Below, piece by piece: positions 32,525-45,568 of a DNA stretch of 52,976 nt. Below the pieces are notes generated by a model. That model was given only the letters and a program-made list of their open reading frames with translations. It did not search any database and was not told where the DNA came from. The position numbers and the translations under genes are program-made. Position 1 is the stretch's first letter, and every line of letters starts with the position of its first letter. Origin of the DNA: Pseudomonadota bacterium (GTDB lineage Bacteria; Pseudomonadota; Gammaproteobacteria; Acidiferrobacterales; UBA6901); the NCBI GenBank assembly GCA_027364845.1, contig DAHXOO010000019.1, forward strand, positions 1 to 52,976, given 5' to 3'.

Positions 32525-34303
32525 CTACGTCACTTTCACCTGAATGAGCTCGGCGCCTTCCGGGTCGGTCACATGCACTGCACAGGCTATGCATGGATCG
32601 AAGCTATGAATGGTGCGTAGGATTTCCAGCGGCTGCTTGGCATCATACAGCTGCGTGCCTTTGAGCGATGCCTCATAGGGTCCTTCCTGACCGGATGCAT
32701 CGCGCGGCCCGGCATTCCAAGTTGTGGGGACCACCGCCTGGTAGTTGTCGATCTTTCCATCCTTGATCACCACCCAGTGCGCCAGAGCGCCACGCGGCGC
32801 CTCGGTATAGCCGACACCGCGCGCGGTTTTCGGCCAGGATGACGGCTCCCACAGCCTGTCGTTGAAGGTCCGGACATCTCCCGTTTTGATATTGGCAATA
32901 AGGCCGTCATACCAGCCCTGCATCGCGTCGACGATAACCTTTGACTCAAGAGTCCGCGCTGCGGTGCGTCCCAGCGTCGAATACAGCGCCTGGATCGGCA
33001 AGCCAAGCTTCTTCAGCGCGTAATTTGCAATCTCGCGCGTGGGCTCATGGCCACTGGCATAGAGCACCAGTACCCGTGCCAGCGGACCGACCTCCATCGG
33101 CTTGCCACGCCAGCGCGGAGACTTCATCCAGGAATAGCTCTGCTCGGTATCCAAATGCTCGTATGGTGGCTTCGGCCCTGTGTAGTGGAGAACGGTTTCA
33201 CCTTTGTACGGATGCAGACCCTTGTCCTTGCCGACGCTGTAGTCATACCAGGAGTGGGTAACGAATTCCTGGACCTGCGCAGGATCACTCAGGTCCACCG
33301 GGTGCAGTTTCGTCAGGTCGCGGTTAACGATGGCCGCTGGCGGAATCAGGAAGCTTTTTGGATCGTTCATGCCCTTCTGCGGGAATTCTCCGAAGGTCAA
33401 AAAGTTACCCACGCCTTCCCCACGCGTGAACCAGTCCTTATAAAAGCCCGCGATAGCAAGTGTGTCCGGAAGATATACCTGGTCCACAAACGTGCGCATC
33501 TGATGAATGACATTTTGCACCACCTCGAGCCCGACAATATTGACGGCAGTCGCTCCCGCGCCTGCCCCGCCGCTATATTGCTCAACCCCACTCTCCAGGT
33601 GTTCCGGATGCACGCTGATGGCGCATGGCGCGCCGCCCACCAGAAAATTCGGATGCGGATTCTTGCCGCCGAAAATGGCATGAAGCTTCACCACCTCCCT
33701 CTGCCATGCGAGCGCTTCGAGATAGTGACTGACCGCCATGAGGTTTGCCTCCGGCGGCAGCTTGTACCCAGGATTGCCCCAATAGCCATTGGCAAAGATC
33801 CCGAGCTGACCTGACTCGACGAAGTTCTTGAGCTTCTTCTGCTGATCGGAGAAGTAGCCAGGTGATGATTTGGGATAGCTACTGATGGACTGAGCAAGCT
33901 CCGACGTTTTTGCCGGATCAGCCTTGAGCGCCGACACCACGTCGACCCAGTCAAGCGCGTGCAGGTGGTAGAAATGCATCACGTGGTCGTGGACGAACTG
34001 CGCCGCAATCATGAGATTGCGGATCAGCTGGGCGTTCGGTGGAATTTCGTAATTGAGCGCGTTCTCCACCGTACGCACCGATGCGATGCCGTGAACCAGC
34101 GTGCATACCCCGCAGATGCGCTGGGCGAACGCCCAGGCGTCGCGTGGATCGCGCCCGCGCAGGATGATCTCTATGCCACGCACCATGGTGCCGGCGCTTG
34201 ACGCCTGGGTGATTGTGCCAGTGGCGTCGGTCTGAGCCTCGATGCGCAAATGGCCTTCGATACGGGTAATCGGGTCAACCACCACTATTTGACTTGCCAT
34301 CAT
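32525..34303 (-). CDS. hynL: Isp-type (group 1e) [NiFe] hydrogenase large subunit
   Basis: A 592-residue catalytic subunit, full length. L1 motif RICGVC gives C64 and C67; L2 motif DPCIACAVH gives C571 and C574. Fifteen residues (VTDPEGAELIQVKVT) follow the L2 His and should be removed by HynD after nickel insertion. The protein lacks a signal and is exported with the Tat-targeted small subunit. The gene order hynS-isp1-isp2-hynL matches the Thiocapsa and Allochromatium hyn operons. The second ATG (34300) has better spacing from GGAG than the first. Confidence 0.96.
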   Translation of the reverse strand: MMASQIVVVDPITRIEGHLRIEAQTDATGTITQASSAGTMVRGIEIILRGRDPRDAWAFAQRICGVCTLVHGIASVRTVENALNYEIPPNAQLIRNLMIAAQFVHDHVMHFYHLHALDWVDVVSALKADPAKTSELAQSISSYPKSSPGYFSDQQKKLKNFVESGQLGIFANGYWGNPGYKLPPEANLMAVSHYLEALAWQREVVKLHAIFGGKNPHPNFLVGGAPCAISVHPEHLESGVEQYSGGAGAGATAVNIVGLEVVQNVIHQMRTFVDQVYLPDTLAIAGFYKDWFTRGEGVGNFLTFGEFPQKGMNDPKSFLIPPAAIVNRDLTKLHPVDLSDPAQVQEFVTHSWYDYSVGKDKGLHPYKGETVLHYTGPKPPYEHLDTEQSYSWMKSPRWRGKPMEVGPLARVLVLYASGHEPTREIANYALKKLGLPIQALYSTLGRTAARTLESKVIVDAMQGWYDGLIANIKTGDVRTFNDRLWEPSSWPKTARGVGYTEAPRGALAHWVVIKDGKIDNYQAVVPTTWNAGPRDASGQEGPYEASLKGTQLYDAKQPLEILRTIHSFDPCIACAVHVTDPEGAELIQVKVT

Positions 34304-34370: not shown

Positions 34371-35726
34371 CTATTGCACGAGATTGTCCGCAACCAGCTC
34401 CAGCAGGCTGTGCGCGGTCTTGTCCCACTTGAAGTGCGCCTGACCATCGTCGAAAGTCAGGCGGCAGTTGGAGCAGCTCATCACCAACATCTCTGCGCCC
34501 GATTCGTCCACCTGCTTCATCTTGATCTGGAAGACCTTGTAGCGCAGGTCGTCCGCGCGATGAATGGTCACGACTCCGCCGCCGCCACCGCAACACCAGT
34601 TGACGTCCCCACTCGGGCTCATTTCGCGCAGCTCCACACCCAGCTTCCCCAGGACTTGGCGCGGCGCCTGCGTGGCCCCGCCGCGGCGTGCAATCTGGCA
34701 GGGATCATGGAATGTCACCGACTTCGGCAGATTCTTGACCTTGAGCCTGCCGTTACCGAGGTTTCTGGCAAGATACTCGGAGACGTGCAATACCTCGAAT
34801 GGCAGCGGCTTGCCGTACATGTTCGCGCCGTCCCAGCGCATGGCGCCGTACGCATGACCGCACTCTGGCAACAGCAGAAGCTTTGCCTTGCACTTGATGG
34901 CGGCATTGATGATTTTCATGCTGAGGTCTTTCTGCCACTGGGCGTTTCCGGAAAGCATACCGAAATTCGTCGCCTCATAGCCGTCGAGGCGGATGGTCCA
35001 TTTTTCGCCGAGCGCGTTCAGTACCCTGGCAGTGGCGACGATGGCCAGGGGATATTTCATGATCTCGACCGAAGACATGCTCACCAGTACATCCGCCACT
35101 TCCCTGTCCACGGAAATCTCCACTCCGTGCTCGTCGGACAGCCAGTCGATGCGATCCTTGAACACTTTGGGTGTGGCGCCGAGCGGGCTGCCCTCGCGCT
35201 CGGCACGCTCGGCGACTGCCCACAGTTCGTGTGGCACGAGCCCTGCCTGAAACATCCCATGACGCGCCTGCCCCACGAGATGGGCGATGTCGATACCCAT
35301 GGGGCAGATCAGAGTGCAGCGCCCACACATGGTGCAGGAGTCGTATATGAGCTCCTGCCATTGCTGCAGCTCGTCCACCGTGACCCGAGGTTTCAAATTA
35401 AACATGCGGTAAAAAAAGGCGAACGGTCCCGACTCACGCTTGTACGCCTGCTTGAACGGCTCCAGCTTGCGCACCGGAGTGTACCGAGGGTCATTTGTCT
35501 GAACATAGTAATGGCACGCTTCGGCGCACATGCCGCAGTGGATGCAGGATTCGAGATAGGCCGCCGAAGTCGCACCGAACTCGCGCACAAAGGCGCGCAT
35601 GGCGGCTTCCACGCGCCGGTCATCAGACATGTCGCCCTGCCGATCGTAACGCAGGGCGGGCTTCTTGACGGTCAGGCGCGTCCCTTCGATGTCCAGCGGA
35701 TGGAGCGTGTCGATGTCGGAACTCAT
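34371..35726 (-). CDS. isp2: Isp2: HdrD/DsrK-like iron-sulfur protein of the hydrogenase
   Basis: A 451-residue cytoplasmic protein from the ATG at 35726, which overlaps the isp1 stop (ATGA). Two N-terminal [4Fe-4S] sites: CIHCGMCAEAC (C61, C64, C67, C71) and CTMCGRCTLICP (C131, C134, C137, C141). Two C-terminal CCG-type segments follow (HDPCQIARRGG; WCCGGGGG with SCSNCRL), like heterodisulfide reductase subunit D. It is thought to take electrons from Isp1 to a cytoplasmic acceptor, or the reverse. A 474-codon opposite-strand frame is an artefact. Confidence 0.94.
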   Translation of the reverse strand: MSSDIDTLHPLDIEGTRLTVKKPALRYDRQGDMSDDRRVEAAMRAFVREFGATSAAYLESCIHCGMCAEACHYYVQTNDPRYTPVRKLEPFKQAYKRESGPFAFFYRMFNLKPRVTVDELQQWQELIYDSCTMCGRCTLICPMGIDIAHLVGQARHGMFQAGLVPHELWAVAERAEREGSPLGATPKVFKDRIDWLSDEHGVEISVDREVADVLVSMSSVEIMKYPLAIVATARVLNALGEKWTIRLDGYEATNFGMLSGNAQWQKDLSMKIINAAIKCKAKLLLLPECGHAYGAMRWDGANMYGKPLPFEVLHVSEYLARNLGNGRLKVKNLPKSVTFHDPCQIARRGGATQAPRQVLGKLGVELREMSPSGDVNWCCGGGGGVVTIHRADDLRYKVFQIKMKQVDESGAEMLVMSCSNCRLTFDDGQAHFKWDKTAHSLLELVADNLVQ

Positions 35727-36376
35727 GTGCTGGCCCCCCGGCGCCCATAGACCACACCGGTCTGACCACGCGCCAAAACAAACAGAACGGCATGCATGAG
35801 CTTGCCAAACGGAAACCAAATGAACAGCAGTTCGACGCTCAAAATATGCACCGCCAGCAGGTTCTCATAGCGCCCGCCGTAATGTGCCACCGCCAGCAGT
35901 CCGGTCACCAACGGCGCGATCGTCACCGCCCAGCTGAAATAGTCATCGAAGTTCGACAGCAGCTTCAGCACCGGATGGGTCAGACGGCGGATGAGAGCCA
36001 TTACCAGCGCGGCCAGGGTGACGACGGCGCTGAAGTAGATCACCGCGCCGGGCAGCCCGGGCCAGCTCACTCCCAGGAGGCTGCGTATAAGCAGGATATG
36101 CGGCACAAAGCCGAAGACGACGATAGCCAGGCCGACATGGAAAACATAGCTGATCGCCAAGCCGTAGGTGGTACGTGCCCGAAACTCCTTACGCGGCCAA
36201 GTACGGCGCACGATGGCCTGCAGCGCTCCCAGCGCCGCGCGGTGGGCGCGCGGCTCGGAATAATCGTGCACACGTCGCAACAGCAGGATGCCGAGCAGGC
36301 GCCACAGAACGCCGAACAGAAAGATCGCGAACGACCACTCCAGCGCCGGCCCGCGCGCGAAGTCGAGCAAGTTCAT
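35723..36376 (-). CDS. isp1: Isp1: haem b membrane subunit of the hydrogenase
   Basis: A 217-residue integral membrane protein with about five helices, starting MNLLDFARGPALEWSF at 36376, overlapping the hynS stop (ATGA). It is similar in layout to nitrate reductase gamma subunit NarI and DsrM. Candidate haem ligands are His residues in YVFHVGLA, FVPHILL, RLTHPVLK and the pair in AVHILS/LMHAVLF. It connects the periplasmic HynSL with Isp2. Confidence 0.93.
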   Translation of the reverse strand: MNLLDFARGPALEWSFAIFLFGVLWRLLGILLLRRVHDYSEPRAHRAALGALQAIVRRTWPRKEFRARTTYGLAISYVFHVGLAIVVFGFVPHILLIRSLLGVSWPGLPGAVIYFSAVVTLAALVMALIRRLTHPVLKLLSNFDDYFSWAVTIAPLVTGLLAVAHYGGRYENLLAVHILSVELLFIWFPFGKLMHAVLFVLARGQTGVVYGRRGAST

Positions 36377-37452
36377 GGCTGCTTCTCCTTCGGCTGTTTC
36401 TCGTTGTCGAGATGCGCCTGGCGGCGGCGCGAGACAACCGCCGCGCCGACTCCGATGGCGGCCCCGGCGACCGCGGCCACGCCCAGCACGGTGGCGCCAC
36501 TCCAGGTGCCGGTGGACAGCGCTTGATAGAAGCTGCCCTTGTCCCAGAAATCCGGTTCCGAACAGCCTAGGCAACCGTGCCCTGACTCAATCGGATAGCT
36601 CGTCCCCTGATTCCACTTTACCGTGGCGCAGGCGTTGTAGGTGACCGGACCCTTGCATCCGAGCTCATACAGGCACCAGCCGTTGCGCGCACCCTCGTCA
36701 TCGAAGGTCTTGGCGAACTTCCCCTGGTCGTAGAACGGCCGGCGATAGCACCGGTCATGGATGGTCTCGCCGAAGAACACCTTGGGACGGCCGAGGTGAT
36801 CCAGCTCCGGAATGCTGCCGAAGGTCAGGTAATGGGCCAGTACGCCGGTGATGACCTCGGGCACCGGAGGGCAGCCAGAGACGTTGACCACCGGCTTGTC
36901 CCTGACGATCTGGCTCACCGCAACAGCGCCGGTCGGATTGGGGTTGGCATGCGGAATACCGCCGAACGCGGCGCAGGTGCCGACCGACACCACCGCAGCC
37001 GCGCCTTTAGCGGCCTCGGTCAGGATATCCACCGCGCTTTCGCCTGCGATCGTACAGTAAACACCATCGTTCCCCACAGGAACCGCGCCATCCACGACAA
37101 GAAGGTATTTGCCCCAATTCTCCTTCATCGCCGTCTTGCGTGCTGCTTCCGCCGCGGTGCCGGCTGCCGCCTGCAGGGTTTCATAGTAGTCCAGCGACAT
37201 GGCATTGAAGATCAGGCTCTCCAACGTTGGCGAGAACGAGCGCGTCAACGATTCACCGCAGCCGGTGCATTCCTGATATGAAAGGTAAATGACTGAAGGA
37301 CGCCGGGCGCGGCTCAGTGCCGCCGCCATCACCGTGGCCATCCCCGGCGGCAGCGCCAGCACCGACGCAGTGGCCGCACAGAACTTCATGAATGCCCTGC
37401 GGGAGATGCCCTGCTTCCTTAGAGATTCCCCTAAAGAATCATCTTTCGACAT
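36373..37452 (-). CDS. hynS: Isp-type (group 1e) [NiFe] hydrogenase small subunit
   Basis: A 359-residue protein from the ATG at 37452, preceded by a near-perfect AAAGGAGGT. It has a Tat signal (SRRAFMKF, twin Arg at 18-19), so it is folded in the cytoplasm with HynL and exported. Cluster ligands: ECTGC (C62, C65), GTCAAFGG, GCPPVPE, then DRCYRR, NGWCLYELGC and SGHGCLGCSEPDFWD. Gly64 sits where oxygen-tolerant enzymes have an extra Cys, so a standard proximal cluster is expected. A C-terminal membrane helix (about 319-342) and basic tail anchor it. Confidence 0.96.
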   Translation of the reverse strand: MSKDDSLGESLRKQGISRRAFMKFCAATASVLALPPGMATVMAAALSRARRPSVIYLSYQECTGCGESLTRSFSPTLESLIFNAMSLDYYETLQAAAGTAAEAARKTAMKENWGKYLLVVDGAVPVGNDGVYCTIAGESAVDILTEAAKGAAAVVSVGTCAAFGGIPHANPNPTGAVAVSQIVRDKPVVNVSGCPPVPEVITGVLAHYLTFGSIPELDHLGRPKVFFGETIHDRCYRRPFYDQGKFAKTFDDEGARNGWCLYELGCKGPVTYNACATVKWNQGTSYPIESGHGCLGCSEPDFWDKGSFYQALSTGTWSGATVLGVAAVAGAAIGVGAAVVSRRRQAHLDNEKQPKEKQP

Positions 37453-37486
37453 CGGATACCTCCTTTGTTTCGATGCGCTGCGGCAT

Positions 37487-37906
37487 TCAACCGCCGAACG
37501 CTTGCAGTTGCGCGTGCAGCATTTCAAGCCCATCAGCAACGTCGTCCGGCGGTGTCTTGAGGATCTCGGGCATGTGCGTGATTTCGATGAACTCCGCCGC
37601 GACTTTCCCGTCTTCGTTGTGATGCGTCACCCACCACACCCCGCGCACGATTGTCTCGTACACCTGCGTCGAACCCAGGGCATGGATGACGGCACTCACC
37701 TCACCTTCCGCAAAAATCCTGCGCAAAACGTCGCGGTCGCCTGGCGCCATGGGCAGACCGCGCAGATCTATGGATCCGCAGGCCCCGATGTCCGCCAGTC
37801 TAGCCAGCATGGACTCGACCTCGTTCGCGATCGCCATAACCCTGCTGAATGCGCGCGCTGGCTCGGCGCCGACAACCCTGACCGGCACATCACTCAGCCG
37901 GCTCAT
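37487..37906 (-). CDS. HupH C-terminal-domain hydrogenase expression/formation protein
   Basis: A 139-residue protein whose second half has the HupH_C pattern: VIHALGSTQVYETIVRGVWWV, HHNEDGKVAAEFIEIT and PEILKTPPDD. Only one such domain is present, whereas HupH and HyaF are longer. HupH-type proteins aid processing or cluster assembly of the small subunit. The ATG at 37906 overlaps the hynD stop (ATGA), better than the GTG at 37912. It precedes hynS by 34 bases. Confidence 0.82.
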   Translation of the reverse strand: MSRLSDVPVRVVGAEPARAFSRVMAIANEVESMLARLADIGACGSIDLRGLPMAPGDRDVLRRIFAEGEVSAVIHALGSTQVYETIVRGVWWVTHHNEDGKVAAEFIEITHMPEILKTPPDDVADGLEMLHAQLQAFGG

Positions 37907-38373
37907 TGCCACGCCCCGGCAAGACCGATGACTTCGCCACAGGCCTGAGGAATCGCGCGCGCAACGGCATCACTGGGACAATCGGCCCAGTCCAGGAATT
38001 GGGGTTGTATTCCGACTAGGGCGCGATAGCGCGGCAGGCGTCCGGCTAGCAGGGCTATCGTCATCAGATCGAGCAGACTCACCTCATGAACACTTGCCTT
38101 GCGATTCGTACCGAGAAAACGGTCCATTTCCCCGCCGACGAATACCCGCAAAGTGCCAGGTGCTGCATGGAGCTCCGCGGCGTCGACGACAATGAGATTG
38201 TCAGCCTCTTCGATCGGACCGGCGAGCGTAAAACTAAGCGTGCCACCGTCGAGAAATTCGATGTCGGAGCGACCACCGTGCTGCTGCTGCATCCAGCGCA
38301 CGGCATGGACACCGACACCCTCATCGCCGAGCAGCGTGTTTCCCAGTCCGAGCACCAGCGTTTTTCTTGTCAT
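37903..38373 (-). CDS. hynD: Hydrogenase maturation protease HynD
   Basis: A 156-residue endopeptidase starting MTRKTLVLGLGN at 38373. Metal-binding residues: Glu in GNTLLGDEGVG (about residue 18), Asp in VVDAAEL (about residue 63), and His in VHEVSLLDL (about residue 94). These match HybD/HupD. It should cut HynL after the L2 His. It is the first gene of the leftward operon hynD-HupH_C-hynS-isp1-isp2-hynL, unusual in that the protease precedes the structural genes. The frame reaching 38550 runs through the promoter region and is rejected. Confidence 0.9.
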   Translation of the reverse strand: MTRKTLVLGLGNTLLGDEGVGVHAVRWMQQQHGGRSDIEFLDGGTLSFTLAGPIEEADNLIVVDAAELHAAPGTLRVFVGGEMDRFLGTNRKASVHEVSLLDLMTIALLAGRLPRYRALVGIQPQFLDWADCPSDAVARAIPQACGEVIGLAGAWQ

Positions 38374-38522
38374 TTTTCTCACATCGCACCGCGCGTCAGA
38401 ACTTGCCTGGTCCAAAACAACCGATTCACCATCGCCACCTCTCCCCGCCATGCGGCCGCACATCTTCTGGTTACGCCGCGTCAGGCTCTTGGCGTTCCCG
38501 AGCAAGCCTTCCGTTCCGAAAG

Positions 38523-38528
38523 ATGGTA
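38523..38528 (-). promoter_or_regulatory. Candidate -10 hexamer for hynD
   Basis: TACCAT on the minus strand (four of six matches to TATAAT), its centre 31 bases from the FNR-box centre, one base short of the ideal class II FNR spacing. Confidence 0.4.
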
Positions 38529-38549
38529 TTCCACTTTGAACGATGATCA

Positions 38550-38563
38550 TTGATGTAAATCAA
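38550..38563. promoter_or_regulatory. FNR/ANR-type binding site
   Basis: TTGATGTAAATCAA is an exact match to the FNR consensus TTGAT-N4-ATCAA. Because the site is symmetric it can serve both directions. FNR-family proteins with an intact iron-sulfur cluster bind such sites in the absence of oxygen, and hyn expression in Thiocapsa is described as FNR-dependent. Confidence 0.85.
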
Positions 38564-38585
38564 ATTTTGGGCGAATGCGCCGCAG

Positions 38586-38591
38586 TAGACT
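38586..38591 (+). promoter_or_regulatory. Candidate -10 hexamer for hypC
   Basis: TAGACT (four of six matches to TATAAT). Its centre is exactly 32 bases from the FNR-box centre, the spacing of a class II FNR-activated promoter (box at -41.5); a start near 38598 is predicted. Confidence 0.5.
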
Positions 38592-38676
38592 GCGGTCACA
38601 TGAACAGCGGCCCGGTAACCAACAGGCCGAGCGGATTTGGCGGTGCCACTCGCCGCGATTCGCCGCGGAGGGTGGA

Positions 38677-38904
38677 ATGTGCCTCGGGATACCCATGCAG
38701 ATCATTGAAATTAACGGTTACACTGCGCGCTGCGCCGCCAAGGGCGTCGAGCGCGAGGCCAGCTTGTTTCTGCTGCAGGATGAACAGCTCGCGCCGGGTG
38801 ACTTCGTGATAATTCACCTCGGATATGTCATACAGAAGATGACATCGCAGGAAGCGTACTCCGCGTGGGCGCTCTATGATCAGATACTGGCCGCCGATGC
38901 ATGA
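38677..38904 (+). CDS. hypC: Hydrogenase assembly chaperone HypC
   Basis: A 75-residue protein starting MCLGIPMQIIEI with GGAGGG upstream. The essential N-terminal Cys2 is present and length is normal. HypC, with HypD, carries the Fe(CN)2CO unit to the hydrogenase large subunit. First gene of the rightward hyp operon; its end overlaps hypA by 8 bases. Confidence 0.95.
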   Translation: MCLGIPMQIIEINGYTARCAAKGVEREASLFLLQDEQLAPGDFVIIHLGYVIQKMTSQEAYSAWALYDQILAADA

Positions 38905-39274
38905 ACTTTCGGTGTGCCAGGCACTGATCGCGCAGGTCGAGGCGGTGGCGGTGCAACATGGGGCAACAGCGGTGCGTAGCATCCGAATCTGCGTCGGACC
39001 GCTTTCCGGCGTCGATCCGGATCTGCTGCAACGGTCATACCCGCTTGTCCGGGCAGGCACCGTCGCAGATGCTGCTGTACTCGTTATTGAGCGTCTGCCG
39101 ATTCGTGTACGCTGCGAGCGCTGTGGCCTTGAGTCCGAGGCAACGCCAAACCGGCTAATCTGCACTCATTGCGGTGACTGGCATACCCGGCTGCTGAGCG
39201 GTGACGAAATGCTGCTGGCGAGTGTGGAACTGGAAGCAAACGACAACCGTCATGTTCCTACGGTATGGGCTTGA
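38897..39274 (+). CDS. hypA: Nickel insertion protein HypA
   Basis: A 125-residue metallochaperone. It begins MHELSVCQAL (Met1-His2-Glu3 bind nickel) and has the zinc site C73-C76 and C89-C92. With HypB it delivers nickel to the large subunit. Overlaps hypC and precedes hypB by 49 bases. The start at 38897 is fixed by the conserved MHE. Confidence 0.95.
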   Translation: MHELSVCQALIAQVEAVAVQHGATAVRSIRICVGPLSGVDPDLLQRSYPLVRAGTVADAAVLVIERLPIRVRCERCGLESEATPNRLICTHCGDWHTRLLSGDEMLLASVELEANDNRHVPTVWA

Positions 39275-39323: not shown

Positions 39324-40187
39324 ATGTGTGACACCTGCGGATGCAACATTACACCCGGAAACGGGCATCTGGTGGCAAGTGGTGGAAAGCTGTCCCGGAC
39401 CGCGGACGGGAAGGCTGCGGTGACGATTCTCAGAAGCCTGCTGGACGAGAACGACCTGCAGGCACGCCACAACCGGGAACATTTTGACCAACATGGAGTT
39501 CTCGCCGTCAATCTCATGTCGTCGCCGGGCTCCGGCAAGACTGCACTGTTGGAAGCGACCATAGACTCGTTGCGCAATGAATTGCGGGTGGCCGTGATCG
39601 AAGGCGACCTCGAGACCGAAAACGACGCGCAACGCGTGCGCGCCAAGGGTGTGCCTGCGGTGCAAATCACAACCGGCAGCGCCTGCCACCTGGATGCGCA
39701 CATGGTGCACGATGCACTGCATCATCTGCCGCTCGACGGTATCGACATCGTTTTCATTGAGAACGTCGGTAACCTTGTGTGTCCGGCAAGCTTCGACCTC
39801 GGCCATCACCGCAATGTCACGCTTCTCTCGGTCACCGAAGGCGATGACAAACCCGCCAAGTATCCAGTAATGTTCCGCGCCGCTGATCTGATGCTGCTCA
39901 CCAAGATCGACCTGCTTGCAGTCCTCGACGATTTCGATCCGCAACGCGCCGAGGCCGCATTGCGAAATCTAGCCAGCGAGGCGCCTTCGATCCGGCTTTC
40001 GGCGCGCTCCCATATGGGCCTTGAAACCTGGACCACATGGCTGCGGCAAGAACTTCACGCTCAACGCCAACGTCTGGCGCAGCATAACAGCGCACGTCCG
40101 GCGATCCAGCCCGACGGCCGCCTCATGCACCACGGGACAACGTCTTTGGTGCATTCTAAATATGTATTTTCCCGGGCGAAACCCTGA
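39324..40187 (+). CDS. hypB: Nickel-binding GTPase HypB
   Basis: A 287-residue SIMIBI-class GTPase. The N-terminal MCDTCGCN (C2, C5, C7) is the high-affinity nickel motif, but the His-rich stretch found in some HypB is absent. The P-loop SSPGSGKT is at residues 66-73, and the second metal Cys lies in GNLVCPASFDLG. It couples GTP hydrolysis to nickel transfer. The roughly 40-residue C-terminal extension after the core is longer than usual. Confidence 0.95.
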   Translation: MCDTCGCNITPGNGHLVASGGKLSRTADGKAAVTILRSLLDENDLQARHNREHFDQHGVLAVNLMSSPGSGKTALLEATIDSLRNELRVAVIEGDLETENDAQRVRAKGVPAVQITTGSACHLDAHMVHDALHHLPLDGIDIVFIENVGNLVCPASFDLGHHRNVTLLSVTEGDDKPAKYPVMFRAADLMLLTKIDLLAVLDDFDPQRAEAALRNLASEAPSIRLSARSHMGLETWTTWLRQELHAQRQRLAQHNSARPAIQPDGRLMHHGTTSLVHSKYVFSRAKP

Positions 40188-40479: not shown

Positions 40480-41400
40480 ATGTCACGGCTGGCTGCTAAA
40501 TACCCGCGGCTTGCCGCCACGGTTGCACTTATCTTGCTGTCCCTGATCTGGGGGTATAACTGGATCATGATGAAACTCGCTCTGCGCTCCGCAAGCCCTA
40601 TCGACTTTGCCGCCTTGCGCACCCTTCTTGCTGCCGCATGCCTGTTCATCGCACTGGCCGTGCTGCGACGACCACTGCGCCCCACCGAGCCGCTCGGCCT
40701 CGCCTGGCTCGGCCTGTTGCAGACCACGGGCTTTATCGGGCTTTCAATGTGGGCGCTGGTGAGCGGTGGCGTGGGCAAGACTGCAGTATTGGTCTATACG
40801 ATGCCGTTCTGGGTCATCGTACTGGCCAAGCTTACGCTCGGCGAACGCATGGATAGCACGCAGAAACTTGCAGTCGCTTTTGGGTTTCTCGGCCTAATCA
40901 TGGTGCTGGCGCCGTGGCATTCGAACGGGAGCTTTAAGAGCGATCTGCTCGCGATCGGCGCCGGAATATTCTGGGCCGCGGGTACGCTGTACGCCAAGAT
41001 CCTGCGCCGCCGGGTACGATTCGATCTGCTGTCCCTCACAGCGTGGCAAATGCTGTTCGGCGCCATCGGGCTCTCGCTGATCGCGGTGCTTCTGCCTCCG
41101 GCACCGCTGCACTGGAATAGGGAGTTCATCGGTGCGCTGACCTATAATGTGATTTTGGGAAATGCGCTTGCCTGGTTCCTGTGGCTGTACGCGCTCGATA
41201 CGCTTCCGGCCGGTGTCGCGAGCCTCGGAACGCTGGCCACTCCCGTCATCGGCGTGGCGGCAGCAGCACTGCAGCTAGGCGAAATGCCGGATACTCCCGA
41301 GGTCATCGGCATGCTGCTGATCGGATCTGCCTTGGCGCTCATCTCACTGCATGCAATTCGCCAGCACCGGCGCGTGAGCCCGGCCATCGGCCAGGAATAG
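40480..41400 (+). CDS. EamA/DMT-family transporter
   Basis: A 306-residue membrane protein with ten predicted helices in two similar halves (about 14-145 and 160-295), each an EamA repeat; SLIWGYNWIMMKLAL at the start is typical. The family exports amino acids, nucleotides and other small metabolites. It is not a known nickel transporter type. It lies between hypB and hypF but is separated from both by gaps (292 and 806 bases), so it is probably independent. Confidence 0.88.
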   Translation: MSRLAAKYPRLAATVALILLSLIWGYNWIMMKLALRSASPIDFAALRTLLAAACLFIALAVLRRPLRPTEPLGLAWLGLLQTTGFIGLSMWALVSGGVGKTAVLVYTMPFWVIVLAKLTLGERMDSTQKLAVAFGFLGLIMVLAPWHSNGSFKSDLLAIGAGIFWAAGTLYAKILRRRVRFDLLSLTAWQMLFGAIGLSLIAVLLPPAPLHWNREFIGALTYNVILGNALAWFLWLYALDTLPAGVASLGTLATPVIGVAAAALQLGEMPDTPEVIGMLLIGSALALISLHAIRQHRRVSPAIGQE

Positions 41401-42206: not shown

Positions 42207-44513
42207 ATGCACGACGATCCCCAACCCGTACCGACCGACTCGTCCCCGCAGCAGATTGTCGCGAGGCGTTGGATCCTGGGAGGCCGCATCCAGGCGGTCG
42301 GATTCCGTCCCTTCGTCTACCGCGTGGCGCACCGTCACGGACTTTCCGGCTGGGTCAGAAACCACGGCGGGCAAGTCGAAATTCTAGCGCAGGGGGCGCT
42401 CGCCGCCATAGACGAATTCGCTGCCGCGCTGCTGGCCGAGGCACCCCCGTTGGCGCAACCCGAGATGCTTTCGGTCGAAGACACGCGAGCCGCGACACTG
42501 CAGACGTTTACCATCCTGGAAAGCGAGGAAGGGCTGAATGCCCCCATCCATGTTCCGCCAGATTACTTCGCCTGCGACGACTGTCTGCGCGATCTGCAGG
42601 ACCCGGGCAACCGGCGCTACCGCTATCCCTTCATCAACTGCACACAGTGCGGTCCCCGCTACACGCTGATCCGGCACCTGCCCTACGACCGGGCCAACAC
42701 AACAATGGCCGGGTTCACACTGTGCGCCGAATGCCAGCACGAGTACCGCGACCCCGCAGACCGCCGCTTCCACGCTGAGCCCATAGCCTGCCCTGTCTGC
42801 GGCCCGGCCGTGGAGTTCTGTGTTGCAGGAACGCCCGCGGTGCACGAAACACCGGCGGCGCTGGCAGCCGGCGTCGCAGCACTTCGGGCCGGACGCATCG
42901 TTGCGGTAAAAGGCGTGGGCGGCTATCACCTCATGTGCGATGCACGCGATGCCGCGGCCGTCGTGCGCCTGCGCCTACGCAAACCGCGGCCGCACAAACC
43001 GTTTGCCGTCATGTTTCCGCTACGCGGCAAGGATGGCCTCGATGCCGTGCGCGAGGCGGTGATGCTCGATGATGAGTCGGTCCGCTTGCTGCGCTCACCG
43101 ATGCGCCCGATCGTGCTGTGCCAGAAAAAGGCTGGCGGTCCACTGTGCACCGAGATCGCTCCCGGGCTGAAGGAGATAGGCATCATGCTGCCTTACAGTC
43201 CGCTGCATCATTTGCTGATCGCCGACCTCGATGCGCCGGTGGTAGCCACTTCGGCCAACGTCAGCGGGGAACCGGTGCTGACCAACCAGGTGCAGATCGA
43301 GGAGCGCCTGGGGCACGTGGCCGAAGCGTACCTGCACCACAACCGTCCGATCGAGCGACCGGCAGACGATGCCGTATACCGCGTTATCGCGCAGCGACCG
43401 CGACTGCTACGCCTCGGGCGCGGCGGTGCGCCACTGGAGCGCCAGCTTCCGCTGCGCTTGGCACAGCCGCTACTGGCCGTGGGTGGGCATACTAAGAATA
43501 CCGTAGCCCTCGCCTGGGAAGACCGTGTCGTGATCTCACCCCACATCGGCGACCTGGACTCACCGCGCAGTCTTGCTGTCTTCGAGCAAGTGGTGGGCGA
43601 CCTTCAGACACTGTACCGCGTGAAAGTATCCGCAGTGGTATGCGATGCCCACCCGGGCTATGGCAGCACGCGCTGGGCGAAACGCACCGGTCTGTCGCTG
43701 ACCACCATCTACCACCACCATGCACATGCTTCGGCCCTTGCCGGAGAGTTTCCGCAAGCGCGGAACTGGCTCACATTCACCTGGGACGGCGCAGGCTACG
43801 GAGAGGACGGGACGCTGTGGGGTGGCGAAGCGTTGTTGGGCCGCCCCGGGGTATGGCGGCGGGTGGCGCGGCTTCGACCGTTTCGACTGCCCGGAGGCGA
43901 GCGTGCTGCACGCCAGCCGTGGCGCAGCGCAGCGGCACTGTGCTGGGAAACCGGGAACACCTGGGACTCTTGCCCAGAGGACACGACGTTGCTGTTTGCG
44001 GCGTGGCAGCAGCACGTCAACAGCCCACCCACCTCCGCCGCCGGACGGCTGTTCGATGCTGCCGCCTCGCTCACGGGACTGCTGCATCGCGCGAGTTACG
44101 AGGGGCAGGGCCCCATGTATCTCGAGGTGGCGTGTACCGCACCCGCCGCAGCGATCACTCTTCCGCTGCGGCGGGCGACGGGGGGTCTGTGGGAGTGTGA
44201 CTGGGCGCCGCTGGTGCCTTATCTGACCGATGCTGCCCTGCCGGTGGCGCAGCGCGCCGCAGGCTTCCACGCGAGTCTTGCGCACTCGCTGCACCAGCAA
44301 GCGCGCATGCTGCGGCTTGAGCACCGAATCGATGCTGTAGGTCTTACCGGTGGCGTGTTTCAGAACCGCATCCTGACTGAGCATGCCTGCGCCTTATTGC
44401 AGGACGACGGCTTCACGGTATACCTTGCACGCGACATCCCGTGCAACGACGCCGGTATCAGTTTCGGTCAGATCGTGGAATGGCAGGCGCAACTGGCTGC
44501 GCACAGCCAGTAG
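42207..44513 (+). CDS. hypF: Carbamoyltransferase HypF
   Basis: A 768-residue protein with all HypF domains in order: acylphosphatase-like (about 18-105, GGRIQAVGFRPFVYR), two zinc fingers (about 122-150 with CDDC/CTQC and 172-200 with CAEC/CPVC), YrdC-like carbamoyl-AMP domain (about 210-395), and Kae1-like C-terminal domain (HHHAHAS near 502, GLTGGVFQNR near 711). It makes the thiocarbamate on HypE that becomes the cyanide ligands. There is no clear ribosome site before the ATG, so the start may be slightly downstream. Confidence 0.96.
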   Translation: MHDDPQPVPTDSSPQQIVARRWILGGRIQAVGFRPFVYRVAHRHGLSGWVRNHGGQVEILAQGALAAIDEFAAALLAEAPPLAQPEMLSVEDTRAATLQTFTILESEEGLNAPIHVPPDYFACDDCLRDLQDPGNRRYRYPFINCTQCGPRYTLIRHLPYDRANTTMAGFTLCAECQHEYRDPADRRFHAEPIACPVCGPAVEFCVAGTPAVHETPAALAAGVAALRAGRIVAVKGVGGYHLMCDARDAAAVVRLRLRKPRPHKPFAVMFPLRGKDGLDAVREAVMLDDESVRLLRSPMRPIVLCQKKAGGPLCTEIAPGLKEIGIMLPYSPLHHLLIADLDAPVVATSANVSGEPVLTNQVQIEERLGHVAEAYLHHNRPIERPADDAVYRVIAQRPRLLRLGRGGAPLERQLPLRLAQPLLAVGGHTKNTVALAWEDRVVISPHIGDLDSPRSLAVFEQVVGDLQTLYRVKVSAVVCDAHPGYGSTRWAKRTGLSLTTIYHHHAHASALAGEFPQARNWLTFTWDGAGYGEDGTLWGGEALLGRPGVWRRVARLRPFRLPGGERAARQPWRSAAALCWETGNTWDSCPEDTTLLFAAWQQHVNSPPTSAAGRLFDAAASLTGLLHRASYEGQGPMYLEVACTAPAAAITLPLRRATGGLWECDWAPLVPYLTDAALPVAQRAAGFHASLAHSLHQQARMLRLEHRIDAVGLTGGVFQNRILTEHACALLQDDGFTVYLARDIPCNDAGISFGQIVEWQAQLAAHSQ

Positions 44514-44548
44514 GATGTGTACGTCCATCAGGCAACGGGTGCATCACC

Positions 44549-45568
44549 GTGAAAACCGATAAATCAAGCGAAACGCATATTTCCCTCGCACATGGGAACG
44601 GCGGACGCTTCATGCGCGAACTAATCGAGCAGGTATTTGCGCATCACCTGTCAAACCCATTGCTTGATATACAAGCTGACGCCGTACCCGTGTCCGTCGG
44701 GGCCACAGAAATCATGGTCACCACAGACGGATTCACGGTTCAGCCGCTGGAATTTCCCGGCGGCGACATCGGCTCGCTTGCGGTTCATGGCACCATCAAT
44801 GATCTCGCCGTGTCTGGTGCCACGCCGCTTTACCTCAGTCTCAGCACGTTCATAGAGGAAGGCATGGAAATTGCCCAGCTCGAACGCATCGTGTCCAGCC
44901 TTGGCCGTGCTGCGACATCGGCCGGCGTGCAGGTCGTTGCCGGCGACACCAAGGTCGTGCGCCGTGGCGAGGGTGGCGGACTTTATATTGCCGCCACCGG
45001 CGTGGGAATTCGCGCGCCCGGTCTGTCTCTGGGCATGCAACACATCCGCGCGGGCGATGCCATGATCGTGAGTGGTCCAGTGGGGGATCACGGGATTGCA
45101 GTGATGCTCGCCCGCGAGCAGTTCGGACTGCGCAGCGACCTGCAATCCGATGCTGCCAGCGTGCTGCCACTGACCCGTGCGCTGCTGCCGCTGTCCGGAC
45201 TGCGCTTCATGCGCGACCCGACGCGCGGCGGGCTAGCCACGGTCGCGAACGAAATCAGCCGCGCCACCGGTCTCGGCGTGCTGTTGCGCGACGAACAGAT
45301 ACCGGTGCGCGAGGCCGTGCGCTCAGTATGCGAAATGCTCGGCTACGATCCATTGTATCTTGCCTGCGAAGGCCGCGTCGTGGCTGTGGTCGCCGCCGAT
45401 CAGGCCGCGGCGGCGCTCGCCGCGTGGCGCGCCCTGCCGCAGGGTGAGTTCGCGGCAATCATAGGAGCGGTGGAGAAAACGCAACCGCAAGTCATTATGG
45501 AAACCGCTCTCGGAGGAAAACGCTTTCTTGAAGAGCTCGAGGATGACCCGCTACCGCGCATCTGCTAA
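44549..45568 (+). CDS. hypE: Hydrogenase maturation protein HypE
   Basis: A 339-residue PurM-like ATPase from the GTG at 44549; the frame reaching back to 44441 lies inside hypF. Family features are HGNGGRFMRELI at the N-terminus, the dimer/ATP region with GDIGSLAVHGTINDLAVSGATP, and the C-terminal PRIC whose Cys accepts carbamoyl from HypF and is dehydrated to thiocyanate. It follows hypF by 35 bases and is surely cotranscribed. Confidence 0.95.
   Translation: MKTDKSSETHISLAHGNGGRFMRELIEQVFAHHLSNPLLDIQADAVPVSVGATEIMVTTDGFTVQPLEFPGGDIGSLAVHGTINDLAVSGATPLYLSLSTFIEEGMEIAQLERIVSSLGRAATSAGVQVVAGDTKVVRRGEGGGLYIAATGVGIRAPGLSLGMQHIRAGDAMIVSGPVGDHGIAVMLAREQFGLRSDLQSDAASVLPLTRALLPLSGLRFMRDPTRGGLATVANEISRATGLGVLLRDEQIPVREAVRSVCEMLGYDPLYLACEGRVVAVVAADQAAAALAAWRALPQGEFAAIIGAVEKTQPQVIMETALGGKRFLEELEDDPLPRIC

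Follow-up and report, generated by a model that had tools for sequence, protein, structure and literature searches.

A single FNR-type palindrome, TTGATGTAAATCAA at positions 38550-38563, most likely acts as a class II activator site in both directions, from which the hydrogenase operon hynD-hupH-hynS-isp1-isp2-hynL and the maturation genes hypCAB would both be switched on at low oxygen, as judged from sequence comparison across relatives. In the window (the whole stretch of DNA that was analysed, 52,976 nucleotides, contig 95 of its genome), hynD on the minus strand and hypC on the plus strand diverge from a 303-bp gap, 38374-38676, and the minus-strand genes, in the order just given, are tightly packed. 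The features concerned are as follows.

38550-38563, no strand: FNR-type palindrome, exact consensus TTGAT-N4-ATCAA; each of the four genus mates has it with no more than one mismatch, and it occurs in other families too
38586-38591, plus strand: -10 element TAGACT toward hypC, its centre 32 bp away from that of the box (38556.5), predicted start near 38598
38523-38528, minus strand: -10 element TACCAT toward hynD, centred 31 bp from the box centre, predicted start near 38515
37903-38373, minus strand: hynD, hydrogenase maturation protease and first gene of its operon (TIGR00072 above cut-off; start set from relatives)
37487-37912, minus strand, exact start not set: hupH-type hydrogenase expression gene (PF04809, HupH_C, above cut-off)
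36373-37491, minus strand, exact start not set: hynS, hydrogenase small subunit (TIGR00391 above cut-off)
35723-36385, minus strand, open frame: isp1, membrane electron-transfer subunit, named by its position and conservation between hynS and isp2
34371-35732, minus strand, open frame: isp2, membrane electron-transfer subunit, resembling HmcF/DsrK below their cut-offs
32525-34303, minus strand: hynL, hydrogenase large subunit (strong match to NiFe large-subunit models, below the equivalog cut-offs; conserved in relatives)
38677-38904, plus strand: hypC, first gene of the plus-strand operon (TIGR00074 above cut-off)
38897-39274, plus strand: hypA, nickel chaperone (TIGR00100 at 79 bits, cut-off 88; place conserved)
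39324-40187, plus strand: hypB, nickel-insertion GTPase (TIGR00073 above cut-off)
42207-45568, plus strand: hypF and hypE (TIGR00143 and TIGR02124 above cut-off)

The limits that a preliminary description had given for the gap were correct, hynD starting at 38373 (MTRKTLVLG) and hypC at 38677 (MCLGIP), and the position of the palindrome, its exact match to the FNR consensus and the distances of TAGACT and TACCAT from it were likewise confirmed. Longer upstream starts, at 38550 for hynD and 38575 for hypC, would make the region coding; these were rejected, since the alignments of the conserved proteins begin at MTRK and MCLGIP and leave the longer starts outside. The palindrome was the only TTGAT-N4-ATCAA without mismatch in the 53 kb scanned, and about 1e-4 such matches would be expected by chance in a 303-bp gap of the window's base composition. 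Genome-wide, 10 exact boxes were found against approximately 0.64 expected (3.15 Mb, window base composition), whereas the reversed control pattern gave no exact match. Each of the two -10 hexamers agrees with TATAAT at four of six positions; they are weak and, taken alone, would not be convincing. A σ54-dependent hydrogenase promoter of the NtrC/HupR type was rejected, since neither the window nor any of the divergent gaps inspected contains a -24/-12 element (TGGCA-N6-TTGC). What characterizes a class II FNR promoter was found here, namely a palindrome, a -10 element at some 31-32 bp from the centre of the site and a four-cysteine FNR protein in the genome, as was what characterizes a bidirectional one: divergent operons, one common site and a fitting -10 element on either side.

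The genome contains eight matches to the CRP/FNR DNA-binding domain, one of them weak. Two of the proteins, L001 and L005, carry a C-X2-C-X5-C cluster close to the N-terminus, have one more, central cysteine and a recognition helix with the sequence ETVSR, and pass the NCBI Fnr cut-off; residues 21-250 of L001 align with the solved FNR structure 5cvr, and close relatives of L001 occur in all four genus mates. By these features, the genome encodes two bona fide four-cysteine FNR proteins. Exact boxes also precede cydA, a DUF883 gene and ackA, with TAAGAT at 32 bp, TATAAA at 32 bp and TATCGT at 31 bp, respectively; another, TTGATTTGAATCAA, lies upstream of hupK-hypC2-hypD on contig 22 of the same genome (L136:1977-4001). 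At the exact boxes L137, L139, L140, L141, L142 and L144, the nearest downstream genes were a coxB-like gene (330 bp away), cydA, a radical SAM protein gene, a gene for a σ54-dependent regulator with a PAS domain, the DUF883 gene and ackA. These six make up a small candidate FNR regulon, and the boxes before cydA, the DUF883 gene and ackA are consistent with one of class II. Considering that DNR and FixK proteins read TTGAT-N4-ATCAA-like sites, the reader of the box might instead be a different member of the CRP/FNR family that shares this half-site, L004 being the main candidate, and the cue nitric oxide or another signal rather than oxygen directly. L004 has the identical ETVSR helix but no N-terminal cysteine cluster, and its score with the Fnr model, 146 bits, falls short of the cut-off of 228. 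We nevertheless regard a reader of this DNR or FixK kind as unlikely to be the explanation, because two full FNR proteins are encoded and because the exact boxes before cydA and ackA fit an oxygen regulon; the two kinds of reader can, moreover, operate together.

The strongest evidence that the two hexamers belong to promoters comes from the conservation of their spacing. We measured the distance between the centres of TANNNT hexamers and the box centre in 23 box-bearing sequences, using as controls shuffled flanks and 34 box-less gaps, the latter measured around their best pseudo-site. On both sides the hexamers peaked sharply at 31 bp, with some at 32 bp; elsewhere between 12 and 59 bp, no distance had more than two. 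A hexamer at 31/32 bp was present on the hypC side in 13/23 box-bearing sequences (1.1 in shuffled flanks, 2/34 in box-less gaps), on the hynD side in 14/23 (0.9 and 0/34) and on both sides in 9/23 (0.06 and 0/34), these last including the window and all four genus mates. When the set was thinned to 15 sequences with less than 50% ungapped flank identity, the corresponding counts were 8, 9 and 5. The box lies 29 to 329 bp from the hynD start and 33 to 113 bp from the hyp start, which indicates that the constant 31/32 bp belongs to the promoter and not to the gap. In 14 of the 23 box-bearing sequences at least one side lacked the hexamer, and in nine it was found on one side only, as would be seen if FNR activated a single operon, the other -10 being incidental or the other operon having a separate promoter. 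The four-of-six match of each hexamer in the window would also agree with such one-way activation. However, each side peaks independently at 31/32 bp, both -10 elements are present in all four genus mates, and the two sides of the window fit equally well, so that we consider activation of only one operon very unlikely.

The divergent hynD/hypC layout was found in all four genus mates, which are all metagenome assemblies, and in many other Gammaproteobacteria, among them loci labelled Gallionella and Betaproteobacteria (older naming). The preliminary description had named conservation of the box and its spacing among relatives as a check on its proposal, and both were borne out by the genus mates and the spacing survey. 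Counting the window, 14 of 51 divergent hynD-hypC gaps carried the box with at most one mismatch, compared with 0.37 in shuffles. In other families its surroundings have diverged, and its central four bases differ among relatives, which fits a protein-binding site rather than mere recent descent. A chance palindrome flanked by chance hexamers, for which the weakness of the -10 elements in the window taken alone could speak, is thus ruled out for practical purposes by the genome counts and by conservation in every genus mate and beyond, unless many separate assemblies share one artefact. Not all divergent hynD-hypC pairs have the box: about 70% of the sampled gaps, mostly from other lineages, are without it. 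Five of these box-less gaps (L073, L060, L069, L134 and L089, Sulfuriferula and Thiobacillus loci among them) have AATAACAACC in common, and several of the five carry TATACT toward hypC; AATAACAACC may be the sign of a different regulator in those lineages.

Because the box and both -10 spacings are conserved, FNR proteins are encoded, and other exact boxes include those of cydA and hupK-hypC2-hypD, one FNR dimer is very probably a two-way activator here. The FNR dimer is symmetric, and polymerase approaching a class II site from either side meets the same face. As oxygen falls, the [4Fe-4S]-FNR dimer, from whichever paralogue, would bind the palindrome, and each of its faces would recruit σ70 RNA polymerase to its own -10 element, centred 32 bp away toward hypC and 31 bp away toward hynD. 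FNR would then be centred near -41.5 relative to both predicted starts, and hynD-hupH-hynS-isp1-isp2-hynL and hypCAB would be induced together. Since the -10 elements are only 63 bp apart, the stretches of DNA that the two polymerases need around the box would overlap, and the polymerases would probably exclude each other at any moment, the promoters firing in turn. We tentatively suggest, as something that may well prove otherwise, that the symmetric site with its two conserved class II -10 elements could be an evolved device in which polymerases competing for one dimer hold hydrogenase subunits and maturation factors in proportion; several gammaproteobacterial families would have retained it, and a different regulator would have taken its place in other lineages that share the layout.

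The hyn [NiFe] hydrogenase of Thiocapsa roseopersicina is reportedly under FNR control (FnrT) and is alike in being an Isp-type hyn hydrogenase with the same kind of regulator and box; a single box common to hyn and a divergent hyp operon is not known from that organism. Anaerobic control of hydrogenases is the subject of a review (BST0330036, as cited in PMC8485047). In Rhizobium leguminosarum, hypBFCDEX has an Fnr-type promoter, so that maturation genes are driven by the same type of promoter as here, but in one direction only, the structural hupSL genes being under their own NifA promoter (PMC3534401). One FNR site at -41.5 suffices at the nrf promoter of E. coli, which makes it a class II site with the position predicted here; unlike the window, nrf is described as a single promoter firing in one direction, and other proteins modulate it (PMC5434802). 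Activation of divergent promoters from a single target is attributed to E. coli CRP in the title of El-Robh and Busby 2002, as listed in PMC5499769 and PMC5434802, and Mycobacterium Cmr also acts from one site (PMC5499769). In both cases one dimer of the same protein family serves two promoters; by contrast with the window, neither protein is FNR, the genes are others, and Cmr represses one of its promoters. One FNR box common to both operons with a conserved two-face geometry was not found in the searchable literature, which leaves out most subscription papers. Both elements, hydrogenase control by FNR and divergent activation from one site (by CRP), are already known, and the site in the window is a new and unusually well-supported case. 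From it follows a concrete prediction of how oxygen would control Isp-type (hyn) hydrogenases among little-studied Gammaproteobacteria, and it is a compact natural case of a single activator dimer with two promoters and a conserved geometry.

The preliminary description had proposed that one site controls the structural operon and its nickel/iron insertion genes. The first part is strongly supported by class II geometry conserved in both directions; the second is safe for hypCAB alone, because hypB is followed by a 292-bp gap, an EamA-type transporter gene and a further stretch of about 0.8 kb before hypF-hypE begins. No FNR box with up to two mismatches was found near the hypF start at 42207, and hypF-hypE are possibly, but not certainly, on the hypCAB transcript. 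hypD is absent from the window's cluster; on contig 22 it follows a hupK-like gene and an additional hypC (hypC2). Downstream of its own FNR box, hupK-hypC2-hypD would supply the missing hypD. This box is weaker evidence, because the class II -10 element was not found there: in the window's genome it has no TANNNT at 31/32 bp, the nearest being TATGGT at 27 bp from the box centre. Three genus mates out of four (L182-L184) also have a box there with zero or one mismatch, L184 having two, and the boxed locus offers an example of how a scattered maturation pathway can be kept under a single regulator. The EamA-type gene (40480-41400 in the window) likewise lies between hypB and hypF in all four genus mates.
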